Shown here piece by piece: positions 6,583 through 64,000 of a DNA stretch of 64,000 nucleotides. The notes under the pieces are model-generated. The model saw only the letters and a list, made by a program, of their open reading frames with translations. It did no database searches and had not been told where the DNA came from. The translations under genes and the position numbers were made by a program. This DNA is from Bryoerythrophyllum caledonicum. Its lineage: Eukaryota > Streptophyta > Bryopsida > Pottiales > Pottiaceae. Within the stretch, counting starts at the first letter, position 1. Each line of letters begins with the position of its first letter. The DNA lies in contig OZ020525.1 of NCBI GenBank assembly GCA_963971425.1, positions 11,290,187 to 11,354,186 on the forward strand, read 5' to 3'.

Positions 6583-8102
6583 TTTTTTTAATTGTGAAGT
6601 TATTTAAAAAGGGAGCTGCCAGAAAAGAATGGAATCGATTGGAGGTCATTCCCAATGCTTTTTGGGGCATACCTCAAAAAGTCACTAGAGACCTTCATGT
6701 TCACTTTTGGTCAGGTTCGCGCTTATTACTTGACGGAACTGGAATCTTGTCCCTGGTACATTGAGTGCCAAAAAAAAGTTTTGTCCTGCTAGTGAGCAAT
6801 AGGAGAAAGCTGACCAAGCCCCACCTCCTGTGGAAGTCTAGGAGGACTCCGACGACGTTGTGGCCGAGGAATCTCCAGTTGAGATTGTACCTGCCATTGA
6901 CAAGAAGTCCTCCAAGAAACGAAGAAAACGAACGGGACGAAGGAGACTAAAGAGGCAAAGACCACCAAGAATACGAAGGAGATGAAGAGCACCAAGGGTA
7001 GCAGTTCTAAAGAGAAGAAGGCCGAAAGCGCTCCTCCACCAATTGCAGTGGCTCCCGTTCTTGGTGCCCTAGATGCGGTGGTTGATAAGCAACCATTCTC
7101 ACTGCCTACCCGAGCTGCTTTCTGCCTCAACAGAGCTTTTCTCTCCCTCTTAGCTTTATGCAATGAGTGCAAAACGATCTGGCACTCACAGCATGGAGCC
7201 GAAATTGTTGATTTTGAACACCTCTGTCCCGGCCATGCTCGACTGTATGGAGAAGAATAAAAACATGGACCCTGAATTTAATAAGCTTCAAAATTTTGCA
7301 CAAGTGGTATGTATGGTTCATATCACCCTTGGTTTTCATGATTTATCATTTTCAACATTATCTTACTTTGAAGTTCAAAGTCTTATTTATATGATTGTTA
7401 ATATTTTTTAAACATGTTGGTCGAGGAAGAGACAATGAGAGATGTTGTGGCAGTGTGCCCAAGCAAGAGGCATGCTTTGATATCATCATTGCTGGTATGC
7501 CCTACAGCCTTCCAGTTTCTAGTACCTTATTTCCACATGATGTGGTACTCAAGGACGTCACATACGTCTAAAATTCAGGGCCCTGGAAGTCCATCCCGTC
7601 CGGAACGTCATCTGGACATGAGTAAATTGGAGGTTGCCCAATTTTCCTTCGGTCAGGCCTGGTGGCCGCACGGTCGGTGGACGGTCGCCTAGTGACCGCC
7701 CCGGTCAACGGGCGACTGCATACGGACCGGACAGCCACCGGGCTAGGACGAAGGCGACCAGGCCGGGACCGGCAATAAAAGAGGTAAATAAAGTTTTAAA
7801 AAAAACCTCAAAGTTATGAACGTCTCGTGGAGCTCTCAGACGGACGTCTCGTCCCGTCCGTTTGAACAAGCTAGGTGGTACCTACCTGGAATCAATTGGA
7901 AGAGGAATGGATTGTAGACATTTTTGAAATGGCCCATGATTCGCTCGAAGGTGATGGTGCCATTGTGCTCTTCCATCCCAACAATGCGGATATCCGGAAA
8001 CCCACTGATCTCGATGCTAAGTCATATGGATTCACCTATTTGGAGGTTTTATGGGGCATCAATGACATGCATCTCACCTCTTCCAAGAGCTCGAATGGCA
8101 CG
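6583..8102 (+). pseudogene. ParB-like/amino-methyltransferase-like gene, copy A (truncated, frameshifted)
   Basis: A decayed, partial copy of the gene at 38580-45074. Homologous blocks in order: an exon-like block at 6583-6760 with WYIEC (copy B: WYLEC); an acidic then Lys-rich linker (6833-7020) split over frames; a block ending NKLQNFAQ at about 7306 (copy B LHDFISR); an intron of about 105 bases starting GTATGT; a block 7412-7572 with FDIIIAGMPY, which lies where beta-class DNA methylases have DLIIADPPY (motif IV); then 7865-8102 with VPTWN and GAIVLFHPNN (copy B IPPWN, LLLFHPND), ending at a donor, GTATGT. About 290 bases between 7573 and 7864 have no counterpart and may be an intron or insertion. 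Neither the ParB-like N-terminus nor the C-terminal motif I part was found. The homology to copy B is seen directly; methylase identity is inferred. Confidence 0.6.
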
Positions 8103-16781: not shown

Positions 16782-16856
16782 AACGCAACACTCAAAAAAC
16801 CTGTGTATCATTACAAAACGATAGTCACTATTAGTATGGAATAAGAATTTTTGAAC

Positions 16857-21043: not shown

Positions 21044-21265
21044 TTAAAGACTCCATGCAAGGAATTCATGCTCTACAAATTCTTAATTTTTTTATTTCAA
21101 AGTTGTTTTATCAAAAGGTCCAATATCATCATCATATTTTGAACTGTAAATATGTGTTTAGAAACATATCTTTTATCAGATGAATGGTGCTTTAAAGGTT
21201 AACAATTAATACATGTATTTTGACTAATGTGTAGCCATAATGTTCCTATTTTTTGAACAGTTATA

Positions 21266-30900: not shown

Positions 30901-31149
30901 GATCTTCTCGACAACATCCTCCAAATCTATCCTCTAGTGAACCGATCTGCTCCCTTCACTCCAGTTCTTCCCTCAATAGTGAAGATCTGTTGTTGTGGTG
31001 GTCGCAAAAATATTTGTGGTATCCCACATGTTCCATGGATGACGTGCAAAGGCCCTCTTGTTTCCAACCACTTTGCTTGTCACCTTGACAGAGGCAAGTG
31101 GTTTTTCTGCCGCCCGCAACTCATAATAACCCATGTAACTCGTTAAGCT

Positions 31150-32267: not shown

Positions 32268-32552
32268 CTAGGTGGTGTTGCTCCACGCCGCCTCGATTCC
32301 AGGTCGATATCCTTCTTCTTCTCCACCACTCGTGTTGCCCATGTAGACATCCACCTTCTCTAAAGTGTAGCCAACAATAGAAAGATCCTCAAAACCTGCG
32401 TGAAACCATGAAGGTTTCATATTCATATACCTAGAGAAGGCAAACACGTCGCAAGATTTCTAGTAAGAACTCGAATAAATCGAGCTGGCAGCTGAGCCTT
32501 CCGCCCATCTCTTGCTTGCCATCCTGGTCTATATATAGCTTGCTGACTCCTC

Positions 32553-33491: not shown

Positions 33492-33655
33492 GGAACTAAA
33501 ACTGTCCCTAGTATGGAAACTGAGAGTAACCTAAGGGTTGCCACCTCCCACGGTAGTGTTGGCACTCATTGCTTCTATTTTGGCCTCCAACCCTACGAAC
33601 TTGGATTTCCAGCTCTTCTTTTTCCCTCCAGTGGCCTTGGATTCCTGCTTCTGTC

Positions 33656-34093
33656 TCATTTAGCTCCCTTGCTTCCGGTGAGCTTCAACTCTGGATGAAG
33701 CTTCCAGCAGCTGGCCTCTGCATGTCCTTTGGCACCACAATCAGAGCAGAAACCTCCAGTCTCAGGTGTGGAAGTCTTACCTTCCTTGCAATTCTTCCTA
33801 TGATGTCCTGGTTTTCCACATTTGAAGCACAAGGCACCAGTGTCTGCAGTATACGAAGGGATAGCCACTTTGGCCACCTTAATCTTTTCTGGGACCTTCT
33901 CTTCACGCTTGAGAAATCCCATGGCTGCCTTCTCTTCCAGTAAATTTATCTCAATTCGCTCCGAGGTTTACAAGAAAAACCGTAGTATCGTTGGTACTCT
34001 CAATCGCAATGCCTTTTTGCAAACCAAAGTCTTCAATCCTTGTTCAGGATATTGTACCAGTGTTGCACTGCATGTTGCTCTGTAACTCCGTGA
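33656..34093 (-). pseudogene. gypsy Gag nucleocapsid remnant
   Basis: Two CCHC-like zinc knuckles: CFKCGKPGHHRKNC (canonical) and CSDCGAKGHAEASC. Upstream the frame is broken but still shows Gag-like text (HGVTEQHAVQHWYN) until 34093, where the element is cut by the start of the GAGCAGTGAGTGG repeat. The rest of Gag is missing. Confidence 0.8.
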
Positions 34094-34112
34094 GCCAACG
34101 AAGCTAGAATGC

Positions 34113-34158
34113 GAGCAGTGAGTGGTGAGCGGTGAGTGATGAGTAGTGAGGAGGGAGG
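34113..34158 (+). repeat. GAGCGGTGAG-type terminal repeat, copy 1
   Basis: Short tandem words GAGCAGTGAG, TGGTGAGCGGTGAG, TGATGAGTAGTGAG. Related runs occur in the same orientation at 37900-37936 and inverted at 49226-49260. It is the left boundary between the gypsy remnant and the MULE-like locus, so probably an element end. Confidence 0.6.
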
Positions 34159-34937
34159 ATAAAAATGGTCATGAATATTCTAATTATAGGAATTTTCTAT
34201 TAATGATATTTTGAATTTTCTGAATAAAATAAAATTTTGCAACCTATTACCGTGGTTTAGAAATATCTTTTGTGATTTATCACTTACAAATGGTCTATGA
34301 AATTGCTTCACATGAAAATAAATGTTGAATTTTAGGGACAAACGTACTCAAAGTTTAATATGGAGTTGACTACTTCTCGTCATTAATTAGATGAATAATT
34401 TTGGATGATATATTTCATGGATGGTCAGAGTTTATGGATGAATGAAGTTCAGGGCATCCATTCAAAATCTCATCTAGTTTTACGAAAATTTCTCTACGAG
34501 TGACATGAAATTTAATGGGAAACTAAAACTATGTTAGTTTACAATGCTTCATAATTCATGCCGTATAAAAAAATATACCTTTCAAGAATAAAGATGAATC
34601 ACTGAACTACTAAATTTTAAAGAAGTCAAAAGAAGTTGTTCTGTGCCAAAGAGCCTATTAGGCCCATTTATTTCTTTCTTTTTTTGTCTACTTTTTTTGA
34701 TTTTTTTTTTCTCATTCCCAACAACGGGATAACATATTTTTTAAATGTTTTCGTCAAGAAATTCTACTATTTCCTCAAGTGAAAATCGTTGCACTTCACA
34801 AGTTTTCTGTGAAGCCCAAAAGGGTTCCTCGGTACCAAGGAGCCATTTTGGCCCTCCAAAGTTTTGTGTAGTTTCAAAGTTAAACTATAAAAGAGGCAAT
34901 AACTTGCCATAACTACTATGACCACAACAAGAAAAAC
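34159..34937. other. AT-rich 3' flank of the MULE-like gene
   Basis: No coding sequence. It holds a TTCCTCGGTACCAAGGAG palindrome near 34826, one of the dispersed GGTACC-centred palindromes of this window. Confidence 0.45.
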
Positions 34938-37837
34938 TTAGAGATTATTATTGCGGAGTAGAAGGTGTACTTCATTGAAACTAAGACTTGGTGCATGTAT
35001 ATACTTGTCGTCTTCCAGGTTTGCCTTGCACAAGAATCTGAATACATAATACAAGTGTTTGCAATTCACTCATGCTTTGCGTTTGCCTAATGCTCCACTG
35101 CTCATGGTTATAAAATCTTTACATGTGCAAGACGGAAAGCCACAAAGCAAAACAATATATGTCTTCTGTTTGGGATTGTTACCTAAATCCATGGTGATGA
35201 TTCTTCCAAAACTAGGATATAGAATTATAGTGACGTTCTTCACAATAGCCAAGTCGTTTCGGGCTGTTTCCCACTTGTTGCGATGGTCAACAGTAGGAGC
35301 CTTTTTCCACCGCTTGATGGTCCTGCCATAGCGCTTTGTTGGATGTGAATCACCATTTGATGGACTCGGACTCACAATGACTCCAAGAGTTGATGTAGGT
35401 GAGCTATGGAAGAGACGTCGGGGAGACATGTCAAAGTCCTTCGTTTGAAGTTGAAAGCCTCCTTCCAATGTCAGGATCTCGCTCTTTGTCAGATTAGTGC
35501 CATGTGCAACCGGCCAAATCTCTGGAATAGTGGGCCAGTCATGGACATACCTAGATTTGGATCCGTGAACACATCTGTTGATATCATCAGGGCAAAACCA
35601 AAAATTGAAGTTGATGATTGCCCTAGTACCATACTCTGTCATGCGGCCATTGTAAGTTGGTGCAGGAGTACCATTCTTCTTATCCTTGCAGACTAAAGCA
35701 CCACACTTCGTATCTTTCTTTCGTACGTGAATGCTAGGACATTTCTTTCCAACCTTCTTGCAGCGTCCAATGTGCCACTGATGTGGATTGCACTCGGTCT
35801 CAAGAATAGAAGTTGCATGTAGAAGATAGGACACTACAGATTCATTAAAAGGGGTGTTTACCTCCGAAGTTCCTGCGTTAGTTTGAGCTTGTGTTGAACG
35901 CGTTTGAACACGAGGATGGGAGAAGTTCACTTTGTCATGCCGGTGAGAGTCCTCATCCGATCCGGGTGGAAGATCAAGCTTCCGTTTGCTAGATCCAAAA
36001 ATCTCTTCACCCTCTAAGTGAGGAACTCTAGTGGTAAATCTATCAGCCCCTGGAAGCAAGCTAATTGCGGCAGCAATCTTTACCGGGTCCTTCGAACGTC
36101 TGGTAGCCCGAAGCCAAAGTTCATCGAGGTGGGGCCTAGTGCCAGATGCGTGACCTTGAAGGAACGTCCAATAATTGGTGGATTGCATCATTGCTCGCAT
36201 TATGTTGTCTGTCGTAGCTACATAAAGGCAAGTCCCTCGGTTCCCTGACATTTGCAACCACTTGTTGTGCACGATCTCCGCGAGGTTGCAAGATGGCATC
36301 TCCGCCAATTGCTCAATGTCCAATTTCTGTATCGCAAGACACACATTTTAGGGTTCAGTAGTACAATTTCGTAAGTGTTAGCAGAGGAATAATTTATAGC
36401 TAGGGCTTGAAAGCAGAAGGACAACAATATAAACCAACGAGTGTAGTTAGGGTTGAATGGTGTAGGGTTTTACTATGTCCATGAAGCCTCCCCACTGGTG
36501 ATAGCGGAAATGCCAGAAACCCAACCAGTCGTCCAGTTCACGCACTACATCTTTGATGCCGCACGCGATGAGAGCCACCAACCTTTGATGCCGAGGTAAA
36601 GTTCTTCCGCCTCTTCAGACGTCTTAGCGTCTTTGTAATGTCTGCAGAGGCGCACATGTTGTTCTCGAAATTCAGGTTTGATGAGCTTATTAGTGTGTCT
36701 GTTTAGAGATGTCACCCAATGAAGAAGTCACGAACTCTCCTTGTCAACCATCTTAATGGTTGGGTCGCCATTCTCGTAGATGATGCGGACAACATTCCAG
36801 TTTTCTTGGGCGCTGTCCACCATGAAACCCTTGAAGTTAGGATTTGGGATTCCGTGGCGAACCATCACCCTGTTCAAAGACTGCCACATTAACTTTTGGG
36901 ATTCCACATCTTCGCTCTGCATATCACAGACGGCGATGCTCATCACATAACAATACTTGGGATCATAGACATGGGCAGCCATGGTAGTCCATCCCTTCAC
37001 TCATTTGACGTGGTCAAACATGATCTAAGAGTTTTGAAGATCTCCACCAGGCTGCATACGTTTGACGAGGTCGACACCACTGCCCGGGCCTTGTTCAGAC
37101 ATCTTGAACAGGTATACCTTCTCTTTGCTTTGCCTTGGAAAGACACTATCTTGGATATAGACATAGAGACTCTTCAATTTCAGTTTGATGATGTTGTCAA
37201 GTGGTCCGCCATTAGCAGTAGCTCGGAAGGAAGAGATAGCATTTCTGATGTTAGGAGAACTAAGTATCCGAAACCTCTCCATGACCCTGACTAGAGAATC
37301 CCCACGAAGCGGTTCGGGCGTACCCTCCCGATGAAGTGCAAAGACCTCATTTGACAAAAACTCCTTACTAGCAGCTAAAGCAATGGCAGAGTTCTTTGCA
37401 ATAGGTGTTTTAGAGACTTCATTACTCACAAGCTCAGTGACTCTGTCAATGGTTTCACAGCAAGTGCCCTTAGCAATAGGATGTTGGTGTATACCAATAT
37501 GGATGCAGGCTCTACCAATACCATTTCTATTGACAACGTAATACATCCTCGAGGGGCATAATTCAAGGCAAGACGGTGGAGACTTACATATCCGGCAGAC
37601 AAGGGTCGAGTTTGGAGGAGGGATGTCACCTACAAGAAAGACATGGGGCGAAAGGCCTTCCCAATCAGTGTCATTATGAGAGCCACTTCGACACAACCTC
37701 GGGCACGCATCGTTCTTACACTGCAGGTGACCAATACAATTAGAAGATCAAAAGGTAAGCCCAAAGTCGTTCACAATGTTAGTGGTATGAGTTTTAGTCC
37801 ATGCATGACCATCGTATCGTTTTTCCATGCCTTCCAT
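34938..37837 (-). pseudogene. MULE-like transposase with SWIM zinc finger, copy 1 (decayed)
   Basis: Likely start MEGMEKRYDGHAW at 37837. Then a Cys-rich N-terminal part (CKNDACPRLC; VCRICKSPP) joined after a TGA; a DDE-like core with GWTTMAAHVYD, IAVCDMQSED and FKGFMVDSAQENWNVV (36728-37000); HWVTSL, where MULEs have a conserved C/H-x-H-W; an intron near 36345-36490; then 34938-36344 ending in a SWIM zinc finger, SCTCKDF followed, across a TGA that replaces Trp, by NCKHLYYVF (CxCxnCxH). SWIM fingers are typical of Mutator-like transposases. Several in-frame stops make it non-functional. The whole set has a clear relative at 45361-47622. The order N-terminal zinc region, DDE core, SWIM is seen; the superfamily name is an inference. 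Confidence 0.7.
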
Positions 37838-37899
37838 CTGGCGAGCTATGGATGGAGAAGTAGAAATAGGAAGGGGAGGGAACTGGGGAAAGCTCATAT

Positions 37900-37936
37900 G
37901 TGAGCGGTGAGTGGTGAGCGGAGAGCGATGAGCAGA
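37900..37936 (+). repeat. GAGCGGTGAG-type terminal repeat, copy 2
   Basis: TGTGAGCGGTGAGTGGTGAG followed by CGGAGAGCGATGAG, about 60 bases upstream of the MULE-like copy 1 start. Read inward from here it matches the reverse complement of 49226-49260, as the two ends of one element would. Confidence 0.6.
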
Positions 37937-38579
37937 AAAAGAGAGCTAACTTTTAAGGATTTTACACAGACTTAATGAACAAAGGGGCCCCTATTACCAT
38001 GGGATACTTTTAAAAAACTTGAAAAAGTTTGCATTCGAATGGATTTTCTTAGCATATTTATAGACATTAGGGCTGACATCATCATGAACATTTATTAAAA
38101 AGAGTGATGTCACCATGTACTATGTAGGGTTTTTTAACCATAATATTGAATACTATATGGATTAAGGGCTCAAATATTACAAGTACTAACAAAAAGAAAA
38201 ACTCAAAAGTGAAAATAAATAAAGATTGATAAGATGAAGATCCAAAATATGGTTAAATATATTTCTTTTTTGATAACATGATAGTGCGGGAGTAAATTAG
38301 TAAGATAGAAGATAAATGTATGTGCTAGTTATTAGTGTGAAATTGGTATTGTAAAACCATTATAACATTATATGAAGAGAAGAAAAGAAGATCAATATAT
38401 AATGAAATAGTTCTAAAGGACACGATACAATGCGATAAGTATAAATGAAATCTAAGATAAAGCTATCAATTGGCAAATCAATGTCAACTGAAGGCCAAGT
38501 TAAACCAAAACAAATGCTTATTCAATTAGCATGCAATGCAAATAAAAAAACTATCTATGAACGGACCGCCATTGTAAGC
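37937..38579. other. AT-rich DNA between MULE-like copy 1 and methylase-like copy B
   Basis: No ORF or repeat recognised. Confidence 0.4.
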
Positions 38580-41500
38580 CTATTTAGAACTATCCTCGCT
38601 ACTAGCACTTTCATGAGCCTCTAAATCAAGATACTAAATAACACACTTATCAAAAGCGCGCCTAGGTTGCCGTAATTGTGGAGATTGCAACTCTGCCATC
38701 ACTTGAACCGCAGCTCCAGCATAGCTAGGGAGAAAAATGCTTGATGGTGGTGAAGACAAAGCAAGCCCTAATGGAGCAGAAGGAGTTGATCTGATTGAAA
38801 CTCTACAAGGAAAAAAACAACAAGGAATTGAAGAAGATTTAGTATTATATTTTTAGTATAAAGGATAAACCATAGAGAAGGTCCAAACTTACTCACAAGA
38901 TGCTACGCGATTGCATTTTTGTCTCTTTTCAGGACACTCATTAGAAGCATAATGTCGAATCCCCTTATTCTGAGCCACCGGAGGCGGCATTGCTGTAGAA
39001 ATAAGAGGTTCCAATAGAAATTTGAAGATTTTCAAGTCATTTTCAAAGGCCAAAATGTGGCAACTGGTTGCTTGACAAACATGAATAGATGCTCCTGCAA
39101 GAGGCCAAGACAATTAAAAACTGGCTTGACTGAATAAATAAAAGCTTGAGCACATTAAAAAATTGAATGGAAGATTTAGTGTCAAATAAGAATTACCGGT
39201 GGAGGCATCCCAATCTAATATAATATCTCCAACCTCTGATGTTGCCTCAATGAAGAACCGCATGAAATCAAAACCTTTTTCCCGAGGCCCTCGCCATGGC
39301 ACACTCTCATACATAAGCTGAGTGTAAGACGTTACCACATTGTAGAAAGTGTCGTGTTCATCAATGCTCGAGCGGAAGAAGAATTGAGATTTGATTGGAT
39401 CATCTCGTACAAATAACTGAGCCCAGAACCGAGTACACTACAAAAACAAAGTAAGAATGAATTAGGACATATAAAATTAATATGCTATGCAGATTGTAGA
39501 AAATGAAAAGTGTAAACATAGCGTGGAGGAGGAATTACGTGGCAAAGCTAAAGGAAGATCATTCATTGCCCACCAATCGTGCTCAAGCCGGAAATAATAA
39601 GTCTCTGCTAGCTCTTCCACCTCAAACAAGACGTCACGATCATTTGGATGAAATAGTAGGAGAGCGGCATCGTCATGCAAGTATAAATCAACAAATTCAA
39701 ACACCGTCTCTATATATTTATCCGGCCTAACATTCCAAGGTGGAATGGCCGTATTTGATACTGATATTCCAGGCACAGGCAAATTCTCTCGAATGTCCAC
39801 AATAATCAGATTGATTCCAATGTGTTTGCATTGTGGATTGGAAACACGGCAGGTCCTCCTTGTTCCAACCTGATAGAAGAAATTATGAATAATGAAAAGA
39901 ATGAAATCAAATGATATCATATGAACATATTGAAATTGATAAGGAAAAATTAAATACCCGAGAAATAAAATCATGGAGTGAAGCCCAAAGAGGATGTTGA
40001 CCACCATTGAGCCCCAAAAAATCCATAATAGTGGACACTGAGGCATTTTGAATGAATGACTCAGTGGACACATGAGGTGGTACAGAAGAACCAAAGGCTG
40101 TAGGTTGACGTGCCTTTCGTTGCGCAGCCACGTTCCAAGAGGTTTGCAAATAACAAGAACCTACAACCTGCAAATCCATTACAGGAGAAGAATCTAATAC
40201 ATGATGATTTGATGTTGCCGCCTTCGTAAGAGCATCTACCACTACTTTCTCTACAATTTCAGCTTATTCTTTTGCAGCAAGAGTTGCCTTCTCTTCCTGA
40301 AGCTTCTCCTTCTCCTTCTTCGACAACCTTTTTTTTTTTACGAAGTCCTAACTTCTATCTCAACTAGAGGTAATGAAGAAGGACCCCGCAATATAATGTC
40401 ATCCTCTTCCTCTGCTACTGGTAAAACATGTGCGTTGCCATGTATGCTACTTCAAAACTCCAACTCTTCATTTGGGGTAAACAAAATGGGACACTCTAGG
40501 TACCAAGCACCCCCTTGAAGGTGTGTTGCCAAGAACTTGCTTTGTTGAATTGCCGTGAAGATGCAAAGACCAGAGTTAGGTTGAGTCCATGCAGCAAAGA
40601 ATGGAGGACAGTTGTTCTCCCCAAGTGCATTCTGAGGCAAAAGTTCTCTTATGACATACCCGTACTAACAATGCGATTGTTTAAAATATATAACACAATT
40701 TCAATATGATAAAATCAACAATAACTAAATATTCTTGAAAGCAAATGATGGAGTTTAGTTCAAACATGTAGACAAGACGGCTAACAACAAAGACTCCAGT
40801 TGGTAGATTTTGAAGCCGAGAATTCTTGAGAAAAGGAGGCTTGACGCTTGTGTGCAGAAATGATAAATATGCCTTGTCCCATTATTAAATGCGCCACCTC
40901 TCAATATAATCAGCACGCCTCATGATTCCGGGACACGCTTGCCAATCCACTGAAATGGTGCCTTTCGAAGAAAGGCGCTCGAACTCGACAATGAACAAGT
41001 TTTTCAACTAAATTTATAATAAAGAAATAGATCAAATAATAACATTGAAAGTTAAAGAACAAAATCAACAAAATTTTAGTTTATAGCTGAGCCCAAAACG
41101 TAGCCCGGTTCAGCCACGAGTCCAGCACAATTTCTTTGACATCATCTGGAAATCAAAATGAAGATCGAAGGGTCGATCCCAAATTCCACCAATGAAGCCA
41201 TTTGGCTGTAAAACGAGGCTCAATAGCTGCAGTGGCAACCTTCTGCAGTTTTTCGATTGTCATCTCGATTTTTTTGAAGTGACTGAAATGATAGTTGATC
41301 TACACACATCAAGACATTAAAATAACAATATGAGACACCATAAAATGGTTATGTTGTAATATTTGCTATGATTATATTTGATATTAGTGCAAACATACCT
41401 CTTCAAAATAACCATCCCCATTGTCGGGATTTGCAACGGAAAGGTATTTTAAAAAATCTTTAGATTTGATTGCTTTAACTGTTGCGTTTATAGTAGCTTC

Positions 41501-44500
41501 CATCGCATCACATGCACCTTGTGGAGATTTATCTTCATCTGGAGTTGACTTCTCGTACTCATCAGCAGCTTCATCGGATGCACGAGAAATGTCTTGCTGC
41601 AAACATAACTTGTATATCATAAACATTGAAGTGAAGAGTTATTTAAAATTAATGAAAGTCAAATTGAAGAGTCAAGTTACTTACCCATAATAAAAATGAT
41701 ATGAATACGTCAACTGTAAGCGGGTACCAAGATGGTTTAGTTTTCTTCACTTTGAGACAAGTGCGATACTTTTTAGGAATAAGAAGGTCTTTAAATTCCT
41801 CCAACTTCAATCCACCATAGTAACGAATGCGTCGCAATTTAGCAGTCAAACTGTTCTTGACGTGATCATTTTGTGTAGACCTGTGAATTTGAATTTATGA
41901 GCATAATAACAATAAAATCTAAAGGACAAAATCTATGATTGAATTAAATTCTTACTAGTTCACATCATGCATACAGTTAAGCATTGTTGAAATACGCCCC
42001 TTGGGATCCAATACTATGCTGAAGACTGAATAATGCCATTGGGAATCATTCCCATGCTCTACATTAATGAAGTGCCACCATGTAGAATACCTGTGGTTGC
42101 CGTCCCACACATAGAACATCTTACCGCGGAATGTAGCATAATCTGGATTCGAACATAAAAGGTCTACGAACCGTTCATTAGCTTCACGCCAGTGAGAACT
42201 CCAAGCTGCCTTGACTTCTTCAGAAACATCTTGAGTCTTTTTGTGATCATCAAAGATGGAAATATAGAGAGCTCTATCCCCATCAATGTAGCCTTCCTCA
42301 AAACGCCTCTCCAATGCAGCAACATCAATCTCCTACAATGGACAAACTGTTGGTAGTGGAATCATCCTACACAAAGGCACATAAAAACCTCTTTGTGTAA
42401 TACTCATACTATGAAGGACGTGCACAAAATCAGACTTTTGTTGATGTCTCCTTGCTCGTTCTCCCGCCTTGAAATCAAAAAGCCCCTCGTACATTTGAGG
42501 TCGTAGGAGTCTTCATTTTCAGAATCTGTCAAATCCTGGTTCCATAAATAGAATGTCAAGTTTCATACCATTAATACTATCAAAGTGTACTATTAAAAAA
42601 ATAGTATTAATTATAATACAAAGGTGACGTACTTGAACTTCAGCATTTGAAATTGGCTGCGTGGATTCTTCCATATTACTTATCACCTCCTACAACAAGT
42701 TTGAAAAACAACACATTAGGAAGGTTAAAAATTAAATGGCAAATTAAGAGGCATCTTAAGTAAGGTACAATGGAGACATAAACAACGTAAGTATGCGTAA
42801 GAGAAGAGTAGTCCATCTGTGTTTTAGTCATTGACGTAGAGGAGTATGTATGTATACGCCACATGATACATGCATCGGTGCCAAGGATCATGCTTCGGCG
42901 CCGAAGCACCTCCACCGAAGTCCAGTCACATACAATCCGGGTTGATTCCAGAGATGGAGCCTGTGATGCGGCTACCACATCCAAACATTCTAAAATCTCT
43001 ACATCGTATTCGTTGATGCAGTTCAGTGGTGAAGGAAAGGAGTGCTGCAGGATGACGCCCTTGCAGTAAGACAACAGACTACGAAGCTCCGGAAAGAGAG
43101 ACTGATCTAAAGCTCTATACATCTAAATTTCAGTTTGATCAATCATTGCCGAACTTACCTGCCGTCGCTTGTCAATCCCTGTCACTTCCGACCTCTCCCG
43201 CTCACCATCCTGACGCCGCTTCAACACAAGCGGCGGCGTGGATAATATGTACACAAAACCCTACCAGCTCGTCCAAGAACGTCATTCAAATGACGGAGTT
43301 CATTCTCGTTTGTTTTTCATTCACAGACATGCATGAGCTAGAAACCTTGATAATTTACTATTTAAAGAATGATTCGGTACCGAAGCATTCTTTGGTGATA
43401 GCATAAATTAAAACTATATGAATCTAGTGGAATCGCCGAACAACCTCCTCGATATCTCAATCACTGGAACAACGTTCTTGATTGAGATGTTTCGGTGCCG
43501 AATCTCCCTTCACTAGTACAAAACTGGGAAAAAAAACCGTGTAATATACCGTTGGAAGCGTGTTTTCAAGGCGCTTTCAACGGTATGTTACACGTCTAAA
43601 AAATCCCAAAAATTGAGGGAGTTATGGCCAAAAAACCCGGGATAGCCCAAATATTCTCTATAAAAGAGATGATTCGGTGCCGAAGCATTCATTGACGGCA
43701 TCATAATTCATTACTATGGAGAAGTAGTGAGATTTTGTTAAACAATGACAGATACAGGCTACTTTTGATACCGAAACAATTTTTTCGGCTGACTTAATCA
43801 GAATCTAGTTGTAGAATTTTAATGAACGAAGACAGATATGGGCTACTTTTGATACCGAAACAACTTTTTCGGTTGACTTAATTAGAATCTAATTGTGGAA
43901 TTTTGTTGGACGATGACAGATATGGGCTACGTTTGGTACGGAAACAACTTTGTCATCTGACATAATCAGAATCTAGTTGTGGAATTTCGTTGAACTTAGA
44001 CAGATATGGGCTACTTTCGGAACCGAAACAATTTTTCGGCTGACTTAATCAGAATCTAGTTATGAAATTTTGTTGAACGATGACAGATACGGGCTACTTT
44101 TGATACCAAAACAATTTTTTCGGCTGACTTAATCAGAATCTAGTTGTGGAATTTTGTTGAACGAAGACAGATATGGGCTACTTTCGGTACCGAGACAACT
44201 TTTTCGGTTGACTTAATCAGAATCTAATTGTGGAATTTTGTTGGACGATGACAGATATGGGCTACGTTCGGTACGGAAACAACTTTGTCATCTGACATAA
44301 TCAGAATCTAGTTGTGGAATTTCGTTGAACTTAGACAGATATGGGCTACTTTCGGAACCGAAACAATTTTTCGGCTGACTTAATCAGAATCTAGTTATGA
44401 AATTTTGTTGAATGATGACAGATATGGGCTACTTTTGGTACGGAAACAACCTTTTAGGCTTACTAAATCAGAATCTAGTTGTGGAGTTTTGTTGAACGAA

Positions 44501-45074
44501 GACAAATATGGGCTACTTTCGGTACCAAAACAAAATCAAAACTTAGAGATGAGAAACTTACTTCTACATTTGGAGTCACCGACGTCGCAATTGGAGTTGC
44601 TTTCGCCGAAGCTTCTGCACTTGATTTCATTGTAGGTTCTTCTGGGATAGAGTCCCCCATGTCATCTTTGTGGCTCCGTCCTAAGACCTTAGGCAACCAC
44701 ACACACGAGAATTTGAATCCACGAACTAGGTCAACACGAGGCAATCAACAATTCATGTACCTGCGATCACAATAAGTATTAAAGCAAGACATAATTATCC
44801 TATTTAGACACTACTCTCTGTGTAGACTTACAACATGAACTTCGTCATTCTCCAAAATGGGGAGTAGTTTGTCATCACAATCACGCTCTGTCGAAGCATA
44901 TGACAACACCTTTGCAGTATCGGAAACGTCAACTTCGGAAATATGTGCCTTTCTCCTTCCCATCTCAGACCTTTTTAGTTGCTTACTACTTGAAAACAAA
45001 AGGCCTCTCTTCCTCCGCTTCTGCTTCCTCACGGTCATTGGAACTACGGTAGCTTCAATAGTTTTCCCAGTCAT
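38580..45074 (-). pseudogene. ParB-like domain fused to amino-methyltransferase-like domain, copy B (multi-exon)
   Basis: Reading 45074 to 38580. Possible 5' exons (44832-45074 with RKQKRRKRG; 44562-44760) with GTAAGT donors. ParB-like exon about 41955-42440: YVPLCRMIPLP, then after a TAG, RRFEEGYIDGDRALYISI and MFYVWDGNHRYSTWW; WDGNHR corresponds to the DGxHR box of ParB. Middle exons 41696-41890 and 41405-41600, and 39950-40640 with a Lys-rich linker. Methylase part: INLIIVDIREN (motif IV position, DPPY lost) and IPPWN, LLLFHPND (39535-39870); EKGFDFMRFFIEATSEVGD plus IILDWDASTG (39199-39437), spliced by a clean GT-AG intron to ASIHVCQATSCHILAFEND (38891-39098), matching KPxEL, LDPFAGSGT and IGIEID of N6/N4 methylases. 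The last exon (38580-38810) is unconserved. Stops in several exons, and CTATGT where copy A has a GTATGT donor, mark it as decayed. ParB-methylase fusions are common in bacteria and phages; a eukaryotic one is unusual. Homology among copies is seen, function inferred. Confidence 0.65.
43747..44535 (-). repeat. 84-bp tandem repeat with 335-bp higher-order period
   Basis: Nine units of about 84 bases plus a part unit, each starting GACAGATATGGGCTAC and holding a TCGGTACCGA-like core and 'taatcagaatcta'. Units 1-4 closely match units 5-8 (43747 to 44082 = 335 bases), so a block of four was duplicated. The array lies between the possible 5' exons and the ParB-like exon of copy B, so it would be intronic. 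Confidence 0.88.
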
Positions 45075-45360
45075 TAGGGATATGTCAGTTCTATCTACTA
45101 AGGTGTGCCAACAATGTCAAAGTCCTCTAGAATTTATATTGTGTTGTAGATGATATCAAATACACCCTAGAAACTCGTAAATGAGGTACAAAATAATTTC
45201 TCTTTATTTAAACAATTATAGTTGTCATATTAATTAGGATAAATGCTTGCAGATTCATGATAACTATTTATATGCTCTCCGTTGTCTTTGCTTACAACAC
45301 ATGTTTTCATTTCATTAATTTAAATGATTCCTATTCTATGTCATGCGCATGGATTCTCAT

Positions 45361-47622
45361 CGTGGGAGAAGAATCCAAGGTCTTCATCTTCAAGATGTCA
45401 AAGGTCAGGCCGTGATCTGGCGTTGACCTTGTCAAGCGGATGCAACCGGGTAATGATCTGGATAATGCGTGGATTATGTTCGATCGCGTCAAGTGCCTGA
45501 CGGGCTGGACAACAATAGGATGTCACGTTTACAACGCTACGTACTGTAGGGTGATGACCGTCGCTATCTGTGACTTGATGTCGGAGGATAAGGATGCTCA
45601 GATGCTTTTCTGGAATAACCTCAATGACATCATGCTTTGACACGGAGTGGAGAAGCCGAACTTCAAGGGATTCATGGCGGACGGTGCTTAGGCCAATTGA
45701 AATGCGATAAGAGCTATCTACGGGGGTGGCAACGTCATGGCGGACAAGGAGCGTACATGCCTATTTCACTATATGCAGAGTATGATCAAGTACACAGAAA
45801 AATGGATTGCCGAGGAATTTCAAGAGCAGTACAAGAGCCTCTGTAAACAATACAAGGAAGCAACAACTATAGAGGATGTCGACTAATTGTACGACGCGCT
45901 TCAGGCATGGTACAAGCTATCTGGAGCTGTGTCTGAAAAGGGGCTTGAGGCCATGTCAAACTGGATTGCATAGTGGCACTTTAGGTACCGTCAATGGGGC
46001 GGGTTCATGACCTCGGTATGGTACGCGCACTCTCACTTACGTTCTCAATATTGTGCACTCTTAGTCCATTTCTTACTTCGTCCTTGATTCTTGACAAACT
46101 TTTGCAGAACATTTCCATTGACAAACTAGCCGAGATGCCTTCTTACAACCTAGCGGAGATCGTGCACAATAAGTGGAAGTAAGCCTTTGGGGGCCGAGGG
46201 GCAGACCTATACGTCACCACTGTAGACGACTACATCCGCGGATTCTTGCAAGTTGTTAACTACCACCAATTCTTGAAAAACAATGTTGGTCGGACCGGAC
46301 CTAGCAAGGAAGAACTAATGCTTAGGGTGGCCGAGAGAAAAGCTCAAAGGACAGGCGACGCCAGTGTCTTGAAGGAGCCCATGTTGCATATGCCCGGGGT
46401 AGAGGAATTTTGTACTCGCACAACAAAGAAGGTTGGAGAAGAGGTGTTCGGTTCACGGAAGCCTAAGCCAAACATGCCAATTGGTGCCGATGACGAGTCA
46501 CATCGACTTGATAAGGTGAACTTCTCTCGCCCTTGACATTCTTTAGGACCCTTAGGAACTTCTTCAGATTTGCTGCCCATTATCAACAAAGACAATGGCA
46601 TTAGTGATGACGACGGTGTCTATGCCGACGACGGCGTCCCTAATAATGATGTCTATTATGTACGACTGGCACATGTGTCACCAATGGCGACTCTGGCTCA
46701 GAGACCTCGTTTGCGGCACGTCACAGCGGTGGAAGAGACTCATGCTGAATTGATAGAGTGGCATATCACTTGCTTGTCAAAGAATTCTGCCAAGAAATGT
46801 TTTGAGCAACGCACAAAAACAAGGACAAAATGTGTAGAGAGGATTGTGAGAGGTGGAAAGGCAACCCCAGCACCAATATACACTGGTTTTTACCATCACC
46901 CGAAAAAGAATGTCTTGGAAACCATGGATTTCTACTTCTGCAACGATGACATCGAAAGGTGTGTGAAGGGTACGAGGCGTGTGTGGGTGGTTCAATATAA
47001 GAAGGGCGTCGATAGGCCTCCAATCCGGGACGTATGGCCTATCATAGTGGGCACTAATCTGACCCGTGGCGAGATTGAGGATCTGGAAGCGGCTCGATTT
47101 CAACTTCCGCAAAAGCTGCAAGTTTCTTCAAGATGTCTATTTACTAACGACAGGCCCCTAAGAGACCTGAGTTCCATCCCAGTGCCAGCGGACGCCAACA
47201 GAATTCCTGCAAAGAGAGATGGTAAGACGGTAAAGCGCACCTCCGAAGTACGCAATGACAAACAAAGGAAGTCCATGGCGTCTGTTGATTCCCCAAATGC
47301 TTCCATTAAAGCCGTGAGGATGCTCCAAGGTCCCGGCTTGGGGTGCCACATTTCTCTCGTTTCATATGGTGATCCGCCCGAAGTTAAAACCTACTCCGTC
47401 ACGGTGAGTGCATTCCCTCATTGCACTTGCCCAGTTTTCACAAAGACTTGGAAGGCGTTCCGTGGAAAGAGCCAATACTTCCATTGTAAGCATCTCTACT
47501 TCATCTTTCTCACTATTTGTGGAATTGATGGAACTATAGAATTCATCCATACTTCTACCTTCAGTTGGAAGGAGGTCAAGGAGATTCTTGAACGCGGCAT
47601 CCAGACACATCCTTGGACCTAG
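45361..47622 (+). pseudogene. MULE-like transposase with SWIM zinc finger, copy 2 (5'-truncated)
   Basis: Colinear with copy 1 (34938-37837) from SKVFIFKMS on: SGVDLVKRMQPG, GWTTIGCHVYN, VAICDLMSED, FKGFMADGA, then an intron (about 46017-46107, GTATGG...TTGCAG) at the same place as in copy 1, DKLAEMPSYNLAEIVHNKW, LDKVNFSRP, and a complete SWIM finger FPHCTCPVF ... YFHCKHLYF in the longest open stretch (46570-47622). The N-terminal Cys-rich region of about 220 residues is absent; homology starts abruptly about 290 bases from the start of the divergent copy B gene. In-frame stops occur in the DDE core. Together with copy B it resembles the layout of the 12.8-kb transposon, transposase on one strand and ParB/methylase-like gene on the other. 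Confidence 0.72.
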
Positions 47623-47864
47623 TCCGGGTCTTTAGCGTATATCAGTAGCGTATACCCTGAACCTACGTGTGAACCTAGGATTAGTTATAGGATAGGTGTT
47701 TGAAAAAAAAATATGACTTTGTTCGGGGAGCACCTATATATATATCAAGATATTTGTTGTGTCGAAAAATATTACGACTCTACGAGTTTGACCTCACAAT
47801 ATGATCTCTCGGTGCTTAGTGGTTATATTCTTACCTATTGGTACCAAGACAAACTATATATTAA

Positions 47865-48783
47865 CCCCTAAAGGACCACGACCACTTTCGCTCTAAAATC
47901 AGTCCAAAACTGCCACTGCCAAAAAGAAACATGAAAATCACAATTTAAAGTGAATTTCGGATTTTCAACCGTAAGATCTTAAAATGGACTTCTATGTTAA
48001 CATGCCACAAATTTTGGTTGCAATCCACCACACGTATTGATAAATTATAGTATTTAAAGTCAAAACAATGGTTCATTTTCTTCCCTACGTTGAGTAGATC
48101 AGCAGACTTTGACTTCACTTTGTATCAAATTTTTGCATTGTACAAGGTCTAAATCTTTTACCATTGTCTTAAGCATGATGATATTTCCCAACACACTAAG
48201 TTTTAGAGGTAAAAAATGGGTGTAGCATATTCAAAACAAGTGTGCAAGGAGTGGAGGTTCAAAAATTGCCATTTCACGTTTTTTTTTTATGAACTACGTA
48301 TGTATTCAAATGATAATCCAAACGGTCAATAAGAAGGCTTTCAGCACATACTATTGAAGAAAAAATAAAAAGTGAAAAATATAAAGATCTCTAGGTTTTA
48401 TGTAAAAAAGATGATTTTTTTCCCCGGTTGCCCAACAATGTGTGAAAATGTTTGACTTGGAATAAAATGCCTTTTCACACTAAAGACAAGATTTTTTTTG
48501 AAAATTTCTAAAGATGGGAATTTTATTTATATTTGTGAAAAATCTCAATGTCAATAGAAACTTTTGTCAAAAAATTTGGAGGTGCCCGGAGTCCCCACTT
48601 TTGGCTTTAAGTGGTACTAACTTTCAAACTACAAATCCAAAAAATAAAATAAAAATATCTCCACAAAGCTCTTATCGGAGGCTATCTTATATAAAATTTT
48701 CAATACAAAAGGTTTTTTTTCCGAATTGTAGGTACATGCCCTAAATCCAATTTGACCCTGGGGGACTTTTGGTCCTTTAGGGA
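47865..48783 (-). mobile_element. TTAA-flanked MITE, copy 3 (919 bp)
   Basis: Flanked by TTAA at 47861-47864 and 48784-48787; begins CCCCTAAAGGACCACGACC and ends GGTCCTTTAGGGA. The interior is the reverse complement of copies 1 and 2 (for example 'ggagtggaggttcaaaaatt'). It has the longest well-preserved inverted ends of the three, about 14 bases. Confidence 0.8.
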
Positions 48784-48785
48784 TT

Positions 48786-49045
48786 AACCTTTTGGTATCG
48801 AGACCCTAAACCGTAACCTCTTGGTACCGAGAGGTTATACCAAAAGCTCTTGGTACCGAGAGGTTATACCAAAACCTCTTGGTACCGATCTATTATACTG
48901 GAACCTCTTGGTACCAAGAGGTTATACCGTAATCTCTTGGGGTCGAGAGGGTACGGTTTAACCTCTTGTGATGTAGAAGTAAATGTATAAACATCGATAC
49001 GAAGTGGGTACGGTATAACCTTTTGGTATCAAGAAGTTCTAAAGT
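48786..49045 (+). repeat. 29-bp tandem repeat built on the palindrome CTCTTGGTACCGAGAG
   Basis: About eight units of 'acctcttggtaccgagaggt' plus 'tataccaaa'. Each unit can form a small hairpin. It adjoins the right TTAA of MITE copy 3, and the last units are degraded. There are no spacers between units. Confidence 0.85.
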
Positions 49046-49225
49046 TAGTACAAAATGTAGAATCTATTTTTGAAGAATAGATACCAATTATCAATCTGAG
49101 TCATGTCTAAATTTAGCAAGAAACCCTAAATCCTAAAAATGGAAAAAATATTATCCAAATATTCATTAAATATCCGAATATTCCAAGAATATTCAAATAT
49201 TTTCTGCTCTCCGTGGTTGAATTCT

Positions 49226-49260
49226 CTGCTAACCACTCACCGCTCTCCGCTCACCGCTCA
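49226..49260 (-). repeat. GAGCGGTGAG-type terminal repeat, copy 3 (inverted)
   Basis: The reverse complement reads TGAGCGGTGAGCGGAGAGCG followed by GTGAGTGG, matching 37900-37936 and, less well, 34113-34158. Its inverted orientation makes it a candidate right end for an element starting at 37900 or at 34113. No matching target duplication was found for either pairing. Confidence 0.6.
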
Positions 49261-49790
49261 TGAATAAGACTCCCTCGGAGGGAACTCAAATAGCACATTC
49301 CCGTTAAACTCTGGAGGAAGATACTTGACCTTTTCGCAGCGTAGCGTATTTAGATCTAAAAACTTCACATCGCTCTTCCCACGTGGTCTACTCTGCAATT
49401 GCCTAATGCACTCTAGAATAAAAGAGGTCTCGTTTTTACGAGGTAAAGGCGGTCAAGAATTTAGCGAAGGCAAGCTAGTGAGGGACTAAGATACGCTCTC
49501 CTGCTGTCCTATAACAATTTCAGTGATGGGGGAAAGAAACGAATATTGTCGAGCTCTCTCCTTAGGAAGGCCGTCGTCATTAGATGACTCGCTTAGAATA
49601 ATAGTGTCAGTCCCTGAGCCCTCGACCTAGATAGAAGAGGAGAAAGCAGTGTGCATTGTGGACTTCCTAGACTCTAGGGTAAGAAGAGAGGGGCTATGGA
49701 AAGGAACGCCAAAAACTCTGAATTTCCCAGTTGGGAGTGTAAGCCCAAAAATAGACCCCCTACGAGAATCAATTTTTAAACCTACAAGGT
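49261..49790 (-). pseudogene. Decayed reading frame of unknown function
   Basis: The minus strand keeps one frame for about 530 bases, interrupted by TAG, TAG and TGA, each of which could come from CAG or CGA. Readable parts include GLTLPTGKFRVFGVPFHS, SNDDGLPKERARQYSFLSPI and KVKYLPPEFNGNVLFEFPP. The frame is cut directly by the inverted GAGCGGTGAG repeat at 49260. It may be the missing N-terminal part of the gypsy Gag (same strand, cut by the other boundary at 34093), but no sequence link proves this. Confidence 0.45.
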
Positions 49791-60917: not shown

Positions 60918-62345
60918 GTGGCGCATGGGCGCGCAGTATGGAGACGAAGTGCTAGTGATGATGGTGGTGCACGATAAGATGCACCATGCTGATTGCCTGA
61001 AGTGATTTCGGTGGCAAGGTGACGATGATCTAGTTAGTTTCAATGACCTAGTGTGCACTGGGGAGGCAAGCGGTTAGGATTTGACTCGGATGTATGGTTG
61101 GCTGTAGCGTGCACACATCAGTGCACCAAATTCGTTTGAACTTTGTGCCGAATATACTTTTTTCATCAGGGATGAGTTTTGAGCCGAATTATCATCTTCG
61201 GTACCGAGGAGCGTTTTTGAGGTCCATCTCGACTTCTCCAAATCTCTAGTTTTCAAGAGTTTATTGGCGCGTGGGCGCACAGTATGGAGATGAAGTGCTG
61301 GTGATGATGGTGGTGCACAATAAGATGCACCATGCTGATTGCCTGACGTGATTTTGGTGGCAAGGTGACGTAGATCCAATTAGTTTCAATGAGACAGTGT
61401 GCACTGGAGAGGCAAGCAGTTAGGGTTTGACTCGGATGTATGGACGGCTATAGCGTGCACACATCACTGCACAAAACTCGTTTGAACTTGTGCCAAATAT
61501 ACTTATTACATCAGGGATGAGTTTTGAGCCAAATTATCATCCTCAGTACCGAGAAGCGTTTTTGAGGTCCATCTCAACTTTTCCAGATCTCTAGTTTTCA
61601 AGAGTTTGTTGGCGCGTGGGCGCATAGTATGGAGACGAAGTGCTGGTGATGATGGTGGTGCACGATTAGATGCACCATGCTGATCGCCTGACGTGATTTT
61701 GGTGGCAAGGTGACGCAGATCCAATTAGTTTCAATGAGACAGTGTGCACTGGAGAGGCAAGCAGTTAGGGTTTGACTCGGATGTATGGACGGCTATAGCG
61801 TGCACACATCACTGCACAAAACTCGTTTGAACTTGTGCCAAATATACTTATTACATCAGGGATGAGTTTTGAGCCAAATTATCATCCTCAGTACCGAGAA
61901 GCGTTTTTGAGGTCCATCTCAACTTTTCCAGATCTCTAGTTTTCAAGAGTTTGTTGGCGCGTGGGCGCATAGTATGGAGACGAAGTGCTGGTGATGATGG
62001 TGGTGCACGATTAGATGCACCATGCTGATCGCCTGACGTGATTTTGGTGGCAAAGTGACGTAGATCCAATTAGTTTCAATGAGACAGTGTGCACTGGGGA
62101 GGCAAGCAGTTAGGGTTTGACTCGGAAGATGTATGGACGGCTGTAGCGTGACTGACCAATGCACAAAACTCGTTTGAACTTTGCCAAAATATCCTCCTCG
62201 GTACCGAGGAATGTTTTTGAGGTCTATCTGGACTTCTCCAGATCTCAAGTTTCATGAGTTTGGACCTTGGTGGCGCGTAGACGCGCGATATGAAGAGGAA
62301 GTGCTAGTGATGATGGTGGTGCACGATAAGATGCACCATGCTGAT
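60918..62345 (+). repeat. 345-bp satellite array
   Basis: Units begin with (T)GGCGC(G)TGGGCGC at 60920, 61266, 61611 and 61956, with a shorter last one at 62272, giving a period of 345-346 bases. The second and third full units are nearly identical. Each unit carries a GGTACCGAG palindrome, a 'gtgcac ... gtgcac' inverted pair and 'gttagggtttgactcgga'. Confidence 0.92.
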
Positions 62346-63164
62346 GTTTGTCTCCAGATGCCACTTACTGACAACCCCTCAGAAGTCACAAGAATGGAAG
62401 ATTCCCCTCCTACCACCGCTGGGGAGCCTGTAACACTCTTTTCTTCTGTTGCAACGACAGCATCATGGGTCATGGATCATGGATCATAGGTCTTGAGGGT
62501 CATGGGTCTGGGGTGTATGCATGTGTTTGTCTTTGCCTCCCGAGGGCGGACTGTCACCTCCGTCATCACTTTTATCGTCCTGCTCCAGCTACGGTGCCGC
62601 TGACAGTGAGAATGTGCTTGAAAACTACGACATTGCGTACAGTCGTGCACTCCTCTAGATGGATCCCGGTGATTCGAGTTTCGAGTCGAAATATCCTCTT
62701 CGGTACCGAGGATCGTTTTGTGGTCATTCTGGACTGAAACATATGAACTCCAGATCTCGTAAGATATGTGGATTTTAAGTTTTACTACTATTAAAGAATT
62801 GCATGGGGAGGGTGTCCAGCTCCTGTGCAGGAATTAAGTTAGGGTCGGAATGCCCTCTTCAGTACCGAGGATCGTTTTGGGGTCTATCAAGACTTTAGCT
62901 AATGAGCTCGTGCGTGCGTGAGTTTTGTGGATCTAAAGTATTCCTATTGTGAAGGAATATGCTTGGGTAGGGTGTCCAGCTCGTGTACAAGAATGAAGTT
63001 TGGTTTTGAATGCCCTCCTCGGTACCGTGGATCACGTTTTCTTGTCTTGATTGAAGATCTTGTTTGATGATCTTGTTTGATCTTGTTCGAGATATAATAT
63101 GACCTTGATTATGCGAACTCCACTTCATGAACTCATGGAGTTATTTCCTTTGTATTTAATGTAG
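62346..63164. repeat. Diverged GGTACCGAGG repeat region upstream of copy C
   Basis: Three further palindromes of the satellite type (62699-62708, about 62860, about 63018), each preceded by 'gaatgccctc(c/t)tc' or 'gaaatatcctcttc' and followed by 'gatcgttttg'. The last lies about 140 bases upstream of the copy C exon, which begins after an ATGTAG acceptor. Confidence 0.6.
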
Positions 63165-64000
63165 ATGGAAGATGATGAGGGTGTCTCGGAGAGCCAAATA
63201 CATGGAGACGGGTTTGATGCCCCATGTGGGGATGGTTCTCAGCCCGTTAGTGAACCAATGGCTCAAGTTGAAGGTGATTGCTTCACGGCAGAAGCGAAGA
63301 TTGGGGCATGCAACGATGGAGTCGATGAGCAGAGCTTAGTTGAAGAGGTGATGGATGGACTAAGCATTGAAGAAGCTGAAAACTCATTCCGGGTGAAGGG
63401 GAAGCTAGATTCAATCTCAATTATCCAAGAATTGCGTTTGAAGCCCATAAGCTCATCATGGCTTCGAATTCCAGTATGTAGAATGATTCCTTTGCCTCTA
63501 GTCCGTCCACTTCTTCACTCTGACGTTAAGCGCTTGGAGTCTGAGTTCGTGCATGGGTATCGCGAAGGTGATAGGGTATTCTATGTGTCAATAACGGACA
63601 ATACAGGGAAGTCTCAACTGGTCACTGACAAAATAAGGGACACTTGGGACATGCATTGGCTTCAAGAGAACGCGACATTTGAGAGGATGTTAGCTGCGGA
63701 CAAGAATCATTCAACTTTTGCAGGTCATATGTTCTTCATCTGGGATGGGAACCATAGGTGTCAAGCATCGTATTCGTATATATCTCGCCTTCATTCGGAG
63801 GAGGTGGACTAGCATTATTCAGTGGACTCCATAGTCCTAACATCAAAGGGCAATACATGGATTCTATTGAACGCGATGAATGATGTGAATTGATATGCAT
63901 AGTGATTGATATGCTCTTGATGGTCATATGAATTAATTTCCTTCTTTACTTCTAATCCTCTTGAATTTATGTTCAGGTCCAATGAAAATGCCCATGTGAA
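63165..64000 (+). pseudogene. ParB-like/amino-methyltransferase-like gene, copy C (5' part, runs off the window)
   Basis: An exon beginning MEDDEGVSESQIHGDG after an AG acceptor holds an acidic leader (to about residue 70) and a ParB-like domain: SSWLRIPVCRMIPLPLVRPL, LESEFVHGYREGDRVFYVSI and MFFIWDGNHRCQASY. It aligns with copy B over about 140 residues (RMIPLP, GY..GDR, YxSI, WDGNHR all shared) and is unbroken where copy B has a TAG. A TAG then follows EEVD (copy B continues at HYSV), and similarity goes on to DVN. After an intron, an acceptor (TTCAG at 63972-63976) opens SNENAHVK, matching copy B STQNDHVK, and the window ends. The single TAG (CAG expected) is its only visible defect, so this is the best preserved ParB-like part of the family. 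The methylase part would lie beyond 64000. Confidence 0.65.

Follow-up and report, generated by a model that had tools for sequence, protein, structure and literature searches.

Decayed, transposon-associated genes with an amino-DNA-methyltransferase-like domain and a probable ParB/Srx-like box in Bryoerythrophyllum caledonicum

The window analysed here is a stretch of 64,000 nucleotides from Bryoerythrophyllum caledonicum that is eukaryotic in content, with a linker histone gene (Pfam E 1.4e-15), a gypsy-type retroelement and short introns; tRNA and Rfam scans of the window gave no match. It contains three copies, here called A, B and C, of a multi-exon gene, along with transposase-like genes, inverted element ends and noncoding arrays of a palindromic motif (Table 1). 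An initial annotation made from the sequence had claimed that the three copies share exon structure and sequence, and tblastn searches within the window confirm this exon by exon. The exons carrying the WDGNHR motif in B and C match with an E-value of 1.6e-38 at 37% identity, the motif-IV exon of A (7887-8102) matches that of B with an E-value of 9e-12 or 1.4e-9 depending on direction, and the preceding exon of A (6601-6768) matches its counterpart in B at 1.4e-5 or 2.9e-5. By sequence comparison, then, A, B and C are homologous above chance.

Table 1. Positions of the gene copies, element parts and repeat arrays in the window
Feature	Positions	Strand	Basis
Copy A: middle exons only (matching e7 and e9 of B), with an interrupting stretch	6598..8102	+	In-window tblastn, hhalign
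Older element copy with terminal repeat (34100) and transposase-like gene (~34968-37747)	34100..37747	-	Homology to right copy
Target-site duplication, left copy GGAGGGAACT	37875..37884	+	Exact 10-bp match
Left terminal inverted repeat, GAGCGGT-type heptads	37885..37939	+	Complementarity to right arm; recurs at 34100
Copy B: decayed multi-exon gene, WDGNHR exon and permuted amino-methyltransferase-like exons	38580..45074	-	Exon tracing, profile matches
Copy B exon: remainder of motif I and CHILAFEND	38893..39094	-	HMM match, exon tracing
Copy B exon: EATSEVGD (motif X side) and IILDWDASTG (motif I)	39197..39437	-	HMM 21.3 bits
Copy B exon: motif IV block; LIIVDIREN (~39783-39809) opposite DPPY region of phage enzymes	39522..39869	-	hhalign columns, FDIIIAGMPY of A hand-placed
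Copy B exon with WDGNHR, ParB/Srx-like box	41956..42535	-	Homology to copy C; local ParB match
Copy B intron of 1439 nt, containing an 84-bp repeat (~9.6 units) that carries TTCGGTACCGAA-type palindromes	43123..44561	-	Repeat and palindrome scans
Transposase-like gene, divergent from B, stop-interrupted	45371..47622	+	Homology to left copy, E 3.5e-67
Subterminal stretch: 7 palindrome matches including a 29-bp tandem array; MITE-like repeat 47861-48787 inserted	47837..49033	+	Repeat and palindrome scans
Right terminal inverted repeat	49222..49276	-	Complementarity to left arm
Target-site duplication, right copy	49277..49286	+	Exact 10-bp match
Region 5' of copy C, with a 345-bp repeat array and isolated palindrome sites	60919..63165	+	Palindrome scan
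Copy C: exon with WDGNHR plus the first part of the following exon, truncated by window end	63165..64000	+	Homology to B

All of the copies visible in the window are broken or cut, and no intact copy was seen there. Copy A has neither WDGNHR nor motif I, and the halves of its motif-IV exon are split by about 300 nt containing stops; copy C leaves the window after its WDGNHR exon and carries one in-frame stop. Because A consists of middle exons and C is cut, WDGNHR and the methyltransferase-like domains are seen jointly in B only. The exon chain of B descends on its strand to about 38580 and includes 12 introns with both ends placed, a count that omits one intron with an unplaced donor as well as the 11-nt A-run separating e7 from e8. 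Ten of these begin with GT and two with CT, and 11 are about 72-109 nt long, the exception being the repeat-bearing intron in Table 1. The motifs on which the initial annotation relied (WDGNHR, EATSEVGD, IILDWDASTG and CHILAFEND) were found where it had placed them, and the intron that it described as cleanly splitting the motif I region is indeed canonical (102 nt, GTAATT...TTGCAG, phase kept). Decay of B is evident from stop codons that interrupt the reading frame of five coding blocks (e5, e6, e7, e8 and the exon with WDGNHR) and from two frame breaks, one inside the WDGNHR exon and one at the A-run between e7 and e8.

Despite this decay the copies retain a record of selection. Identity at third codon positions is 0.32-0.40 versus 0.50-0.64 at positions 1 and 2 in all three within-family comparisons (p 0.00023, 0.0044 and 0.025). 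Since third positions are the most diverged in every case and exon homology is strong, the genes evolved as proteins before breaking; the codon positions, as read from these alignments, are those of a gene family under past protein-level constraint. Two further candidates in the window were set aside. An intact 1348-aa ORF (12816-16862) was considered as a second ParB/methyltransferase-like protein and dropped, its HMM scores being reached by 210 of 1000 shuffles for ParB and 108 of 1000 for methyltransferase; it has no Pfam, PHROG or NCBIfam match and a PDB match at chance level (E 1.2). Pfam likewise did not support reading ...CNECKTIWHS... of copy A as a PHD finger.

The evidence for METHYLTRANSFERASE comes from the spliced 264-aa block e9-e11 of copy B, which matches three PHROG families (E 4.4e-4, 6.1e-3 and 0.02), all annotated as DNA methyltransferase or methyltransferase. 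The same block matches the Pfam family N6_N4_Mtase (PF01555) at E 0.019 and 15.3 bits, below the curated cut-off of 26.7; methyltransferases are its sole matches in PHROGs and Pfam at limits of E 1 and 10. It has no methyltransferase match in NCBIfam, and none among PDB sequences, where a replication protein (E 0.45) came top. Scored with an HMM built from 16 phage and viral enzymes, the block reaches 21.3 bits, compared with 8.6 for the best of 5000 shuffles, and the reversed block fell outside the top eight rows of the scoring. These 16 enzymes were drawn from 21 loci (L001-L021), leaving out L005 (partial), L014 (split gene) and L016, L018 and L020 (long inserts); further scans of viral and genome contigs used phage queries to enlarge the reference sets, and the single genome locus went unused. 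The HMM match spans residues 165-225 of the block, corresponding to the X-I block. With hhalign, copy B alone aligns to the methyltransferase set at Prob 86 and E 4.8e-6 over only 66 columns, and a query joining B with the pieces of A, which were set against those of B by hand, aligns at Prob 94.7 and E 5.8e-8 over 194 columns (score 57.0 versus 26.1 for the best of 200 column shuffles). This joint query has no match to the ParB set. Together these results uphold the initial annotation's beta-class reading of copy B, and homology of its last exons to permuted beta-class amino-DNA-methyltransferases is supported.

The placement of motif IV is less secure. The initial annotation had put it upstream of the X-I block, and that order, motif IV and then X-I as in permuted (beta-class) enzymes, is recovered in the 194-column alignment. 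However, the motif-IV half by itself, including the hand-placed row of A, reaches 27.3, barely more than the 26.7 of its best shuffle, and since the match of B alone covers 66 columns, the placement leans on the hand-placed pieces. A MAFFT alignment sets PPW of copy B under DPPY, whereas hhalign sets LIIVDIREN of B and FDIIIAGMPY of A there; we followed hhalign because A keeps PY, which is a choice. Searches of phage and viral sequences for relatives found little. In phage tblastn the methyltransferase block of B returned six weak records (best E 1e-2) and copy C none, and viral contig scans with copy C, the methyltransferase block of B, the B/C alignment and the left transposase-like ORF, whose reach is limited to near relatives, found no relative.

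Evidence for a ParB-like region is local. In copy C, WDGNHR sits within MFFIWDGNHRCQAS, which contains a GxxR-type box of the ParB/Srx superfamily and aligns with the corresponding box of 11 phage ParB-like sequences at Prob 20 and E 1.1e-3 over 14 columns; the score of 28.2 was equalled by none of 200 column shuffles (maximum 23.2), and the same query has no match to the methyltransferase set. A single-sequence ParB HMM gives copy C 5.0 bits and copy B 2.7 bits, values that 9 and 16, respectively, of 3000 shuffles matched or exceeded; with a free deletion permitted, the score was reached by 0 of 400 shuffles for C and 10 of 400 for B. Outside the WDGNHR box no significance was found in Pfam, NCBIfam, PDB sequences, HMM scoring or shuffles. 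A ParB family profile over the whole domain found no match in Pfam, NCBIfam or PDB sequences, the last of which gave a phage tail protein at E 0.69 as top match to the B/C alignment. The ParB setting claimed by the initial annotation thus stands for the local box but not as a whole-domain match, and of the two Pfam families that it named as a check, N6_N4_Mtase appears under its cut-off and ParB is absent. On the strength of some 14 residues around WDGNHR, we consider a ParB/Srx-like box in the N-terminal part of the protein likely, by a modest margin over its absence.

Copy B lies inside a transposable element of 11,392 bp (37885-49276), which also encloses the right transposase-like gene, the two genes being arranged head to head. 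The terminal arms (37901-37939 and 49222-49260) are 82% complementary, and the 10-mer GGAGGGAACT occurs 16 nt outside the terminal heptads at either end. An equally symmetric match arose in 65 of 200000 random anchor pairs and in 50 of 100000 pairs loosely matched in composition, the matching (left purines at least 0.62) being looser than the observed left flank (0.775); the 10-mer had been found by searching about 160 nt per side, and the symmetry test came afterwards. Direct duplications were sought for three pairings of ends. Pairing 37.9 with 49.26 kb gave the 10-mer and pairing 34.1 with 37.95 kb gave nothing; the asymmetric 9-mer (45125/49411) obtained by pairing 45.1 with 49.26 kb was taken as chance. 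MULE target-site duplications are 8-11 bp long, and the symmetric 10-bp duplication and inverted ends at this element are of the MULE type. Transposase-like genes flank copy B on both sides and point outward; they are mutually homologous, and a third copy of the element end lies beside the left one. No MULE transposase profile was found in the transposase-like gene with Pfam, where SWIM appears only at E 0.17. We call it transposase-like on the basis of the homology between its two copies, the ends, the duplication and what we take to be a DDE/SWIM resemblance. Inverted ends and a 10-bp duplication that enclose both the gene and a transposase-like ORF thus support copy B as element-borne, in keeping with the link to transposases that had been proposed; the element boundaries and the palindrome arrays described below go beyond that proposal. 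The left transposase-like gene is judged to start near 37.8 kb, adjoining the insertion point. A second, older element of the same layout probably surrounds that of B, and copy C, 14 kb beyond the insertion, may be its methyltransferase partner.

A palindrome centred on GGTACC turns up repeatedly, both in noncoding repeats that adjoin the three gene copies and in the subterminal parts of the two elements. Allowing at most one mismatch, TCGGTACCGA has 21 matches in the window versus 0.73 expected, a count reached in none of 100 shuffles, and the exact form CGGTACCG occurs 7 times versus 0.21 expected. All 1024 ten-base palindromes were screened, and the 67 with at least 6 raw matches were ranked after similar contexts had been collapsed. 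By this measure TCGGTACCGA is found in 8 contexts versus 0.77 expected (P 1.6e-6 before correction for 1024) and ranks fifth by both ratio and P, behind four palindromes of alternating GC or TA type. The degenerate form YTYGGTRCCRAR, again at no more than one mismatch, has 45 sites compared with a mean of 3.2 and a largest value of 6 in 30 Markov sequences; 43 of the 45 lie within 26.6 kb of element-associated sequence, and only 3 of 23 inside the element of B fall in exons or the ORF. Both the degenerate form and these territories were picked after the first palindrome result, and array units are not independent. A site at 55.8 kb belongs to the repeat family of the copy C array (about 70% identity). 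No exact 9- or 10-mer is common to the three 5' stretches tested, and the likeness among them is therefore the palindrome and not the repeat units.

Position is what would tie the palindrome to the protein, and repeat arrays also arise passively. It could instead have nothing to do with the methyltransferase-like protein and be a binding site for the transposase or a minisatellite prone to hairpins, an explanation compatible with an element-borne gene and one that we regard as a serious if minority possibility. Transposase sites typically lie in subterminal regions, where the palindrome also occurs in both elements; its greatest density, however, is in the 5' intron of B and 5' of C, away from the element ends.

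We propose, with a probability of roughly 55%, that a family of Mutator-like (MULE-like) DNA transposons with VANDAL/VANC-like self-regulation carried an accessory gene, of which A, B and C are decayed copies. The encoded protein would have combined a C-terminal permuted, bacterial-type amino-methyltransferase domain with a probable N-terminal ParB/Srx-like box. Through its N-terminal part or the methyltransferase it may have recognised the GGTACC-core palindrome, and it may have marked or bound the noncoding regions of its own element. The outcome would be control of element expression or transposition, or resistance to host silencing; overall, the proposal is one of sequence-specific self-regulation by an amino-methyltransferase-type protein. 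Its putative activity and function are read from homology, which suggests the writing of 6mA or 4mC, perhaps controlling transposition. The fuller version, in which the transposon encodes a ParB-box/amino-methyltransferase together with cognate YTYGGTACCRAR arrays, and self-marking with 6mA/4mC or clamp loading controls mobility and allows escape from silencing, appears doubtful to us.

Loss of catalysis would fit within the same proposal. In place of a full (D/N/S)PP(Y/W) motif IV, copy B has DIRE and copy A has GMPY, and motif I of B is DASTG; neither copy therefore has an intact active site, and that region of copy C falls outside the window. The protein might then be a non-catalytic, DNA-binding methyltransferase relative (a pseudoenzyme) acting as a repressor or anti-silencing factor, in that constraint on codon positions coexists with a degenerate motif IV in each copy where this motif is visible. 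Against this, PY kept in A and D kept in B suggest a DPPY-type ancestor, and as the copies are otherwise broken or cut, loss by decay is equally likely; we think an ancestral pseudoenzyme improbable, though compatible with self-regulation by an element. An alternative in which the gene comes from a multi-exon family of the host that transposons captured or simply flank, with an element not dependent on the gene, is suggested by the many small, host-like introns (~72-109 nt), by the capture of host genes by MULEs (PMC13317346) and by the lack of an end near copy A among the element ends listed, but we judge it unlikely given the head-to-head arrangement of gene and transposase-like ORF within inverted ends and a 10-bp duplication, the same order in what is probably a second element, and the overlap in amino-acid identity between copies of the methyltransferase-like gene (0.30-0.41) and of the transposase-like gene (0.37-0.59).

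An element-borne accessory gene of this kind has partial counterparts in several known systems. ParB-methyltransferase fusions are already known from phages, according to PMC12704722 and PMC5512222, the second of which names the Bacillus cereus ParB-methylase Bce_0392. Those of phages and archaeal viruses (for example phiH YcdA, L009) likewise place a ParB-type box ahead of the permuted N6_N4 methyltransferase, and L009 matches ParB_N at E 1.3e-4, below its cut-off, and N6_N4_Mtase at E 5.7e-35. Unlike these, the gene described here is eukaryotic, has many exons, an extra middle region and degenerate motifs, and lies within a DNA transposon. The VANDAL MULEs of Arabidopsis also have degenerate ends, an accessory gene and noncoding tandem repeats with a short motif, and their accessory protein VANC binds arrays of the motif in the noncoding DNA of the element and lifts silencing (PMC10398659). 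The present system differs in that its accessory protein resembles a methyltransferase and its motif is a palindrome. The bdelloid N4CMT is similarly a eukaryotic, intron-containing N6_N4 methyltransferase of permuted, bacterial type that is linked to transposons (PMC8885841), but it is a host gene with a chromodomain, whereas ours is an element gene with a ParB-like box. DNA methyltransferases on transposable elements are also described in PMC5890265, namely KnitGypsy-Dnmt3 DNMT retrotransposons of Symbiodinium and Dam-like DIRS; these are retroelements with C5 or Dam-like enzymes, in contrast to a DNA transposon with a beta-class-like protein.

The same bdelloid account states that the enzyme has no eukaryotic homologs (PMC8885841). 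A later count, however, gives 66 N6_N4_Mtase genes in the red alga Asparagopsis taxiformis and 4-6 in three other red algae, so eukaryotic members of the family are not unheard of; these genes are likewise eukaryotic and multiple, and in the available sections of that report (PMC12115072) they are described without element context or a ParB box. In the literature searched, which left most subscription papers and bioRxiv preprints outside, none of the matches listed showed a DNA transposon that carries a gene for a beta-class amino-methyltransferase. If the proposed self-regulation is correct, it would join methyltransferase-carrying retroelements with MULE anti-silencing on motif arrays. It would predict modified GGTACC-core sites on active copies, and the question whether 6mA or 4mC can act as a selfish mark in a complex eukaryote would become directly testable.

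In copy B's element, the MULE-like unit carrying the decayed methyltransferase-like gene, one of four copies of a diverged interspersed repeat lies within the right end and splits the array of GGTACC-core palindromes. The inverted ends of this copy span 18 nt and are 94% complementary, most pairs of copies share 73–77% identity, and the repeat is MITE-like.

Other features of the window, with positions
Feature	Position	Strand	Details
Interspersed repeat	3852-4779, 16844-17931, 20320-21029, 47861-48787	both	fourth copy within copy B's element
565-bp stretch	11211-11775, 27197-27760		two copies, 95% identity
1348-aa ORF	12816-16862	-	intact
DUF7869 ORF	21257-24457	+	1066 aa, intact; E 1.2e-50
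Gypsy-type retroelement	27672-33967	-	RVT_1 (E 2.3e-21), RNase H, integrase
C5 cytosine methyltransferase domain, in retroelement	31209-32048		E 1.5e-10

Searches of Pfam, PHROGs and NCBIfam recognised no domain in the 1348-aa ORF, and comparison with PDB sequences gave no significant match. The DUF7869 ORF is possibly a transposase belonging to another element.

The gypsy-type retroelement adjoins the older MULE-like copy, a terminal repeat with a transposase-like gene. Its partial PHD finger (E 0.0021) falls under the cut-off for that profile. Near 27.7 kb, one of the two 565-bp copies reaches into the end of the ORF that encodes this finger. The retroelement resembles the charophyte Gypsy-Dnmt3 elements (PMC5890265).
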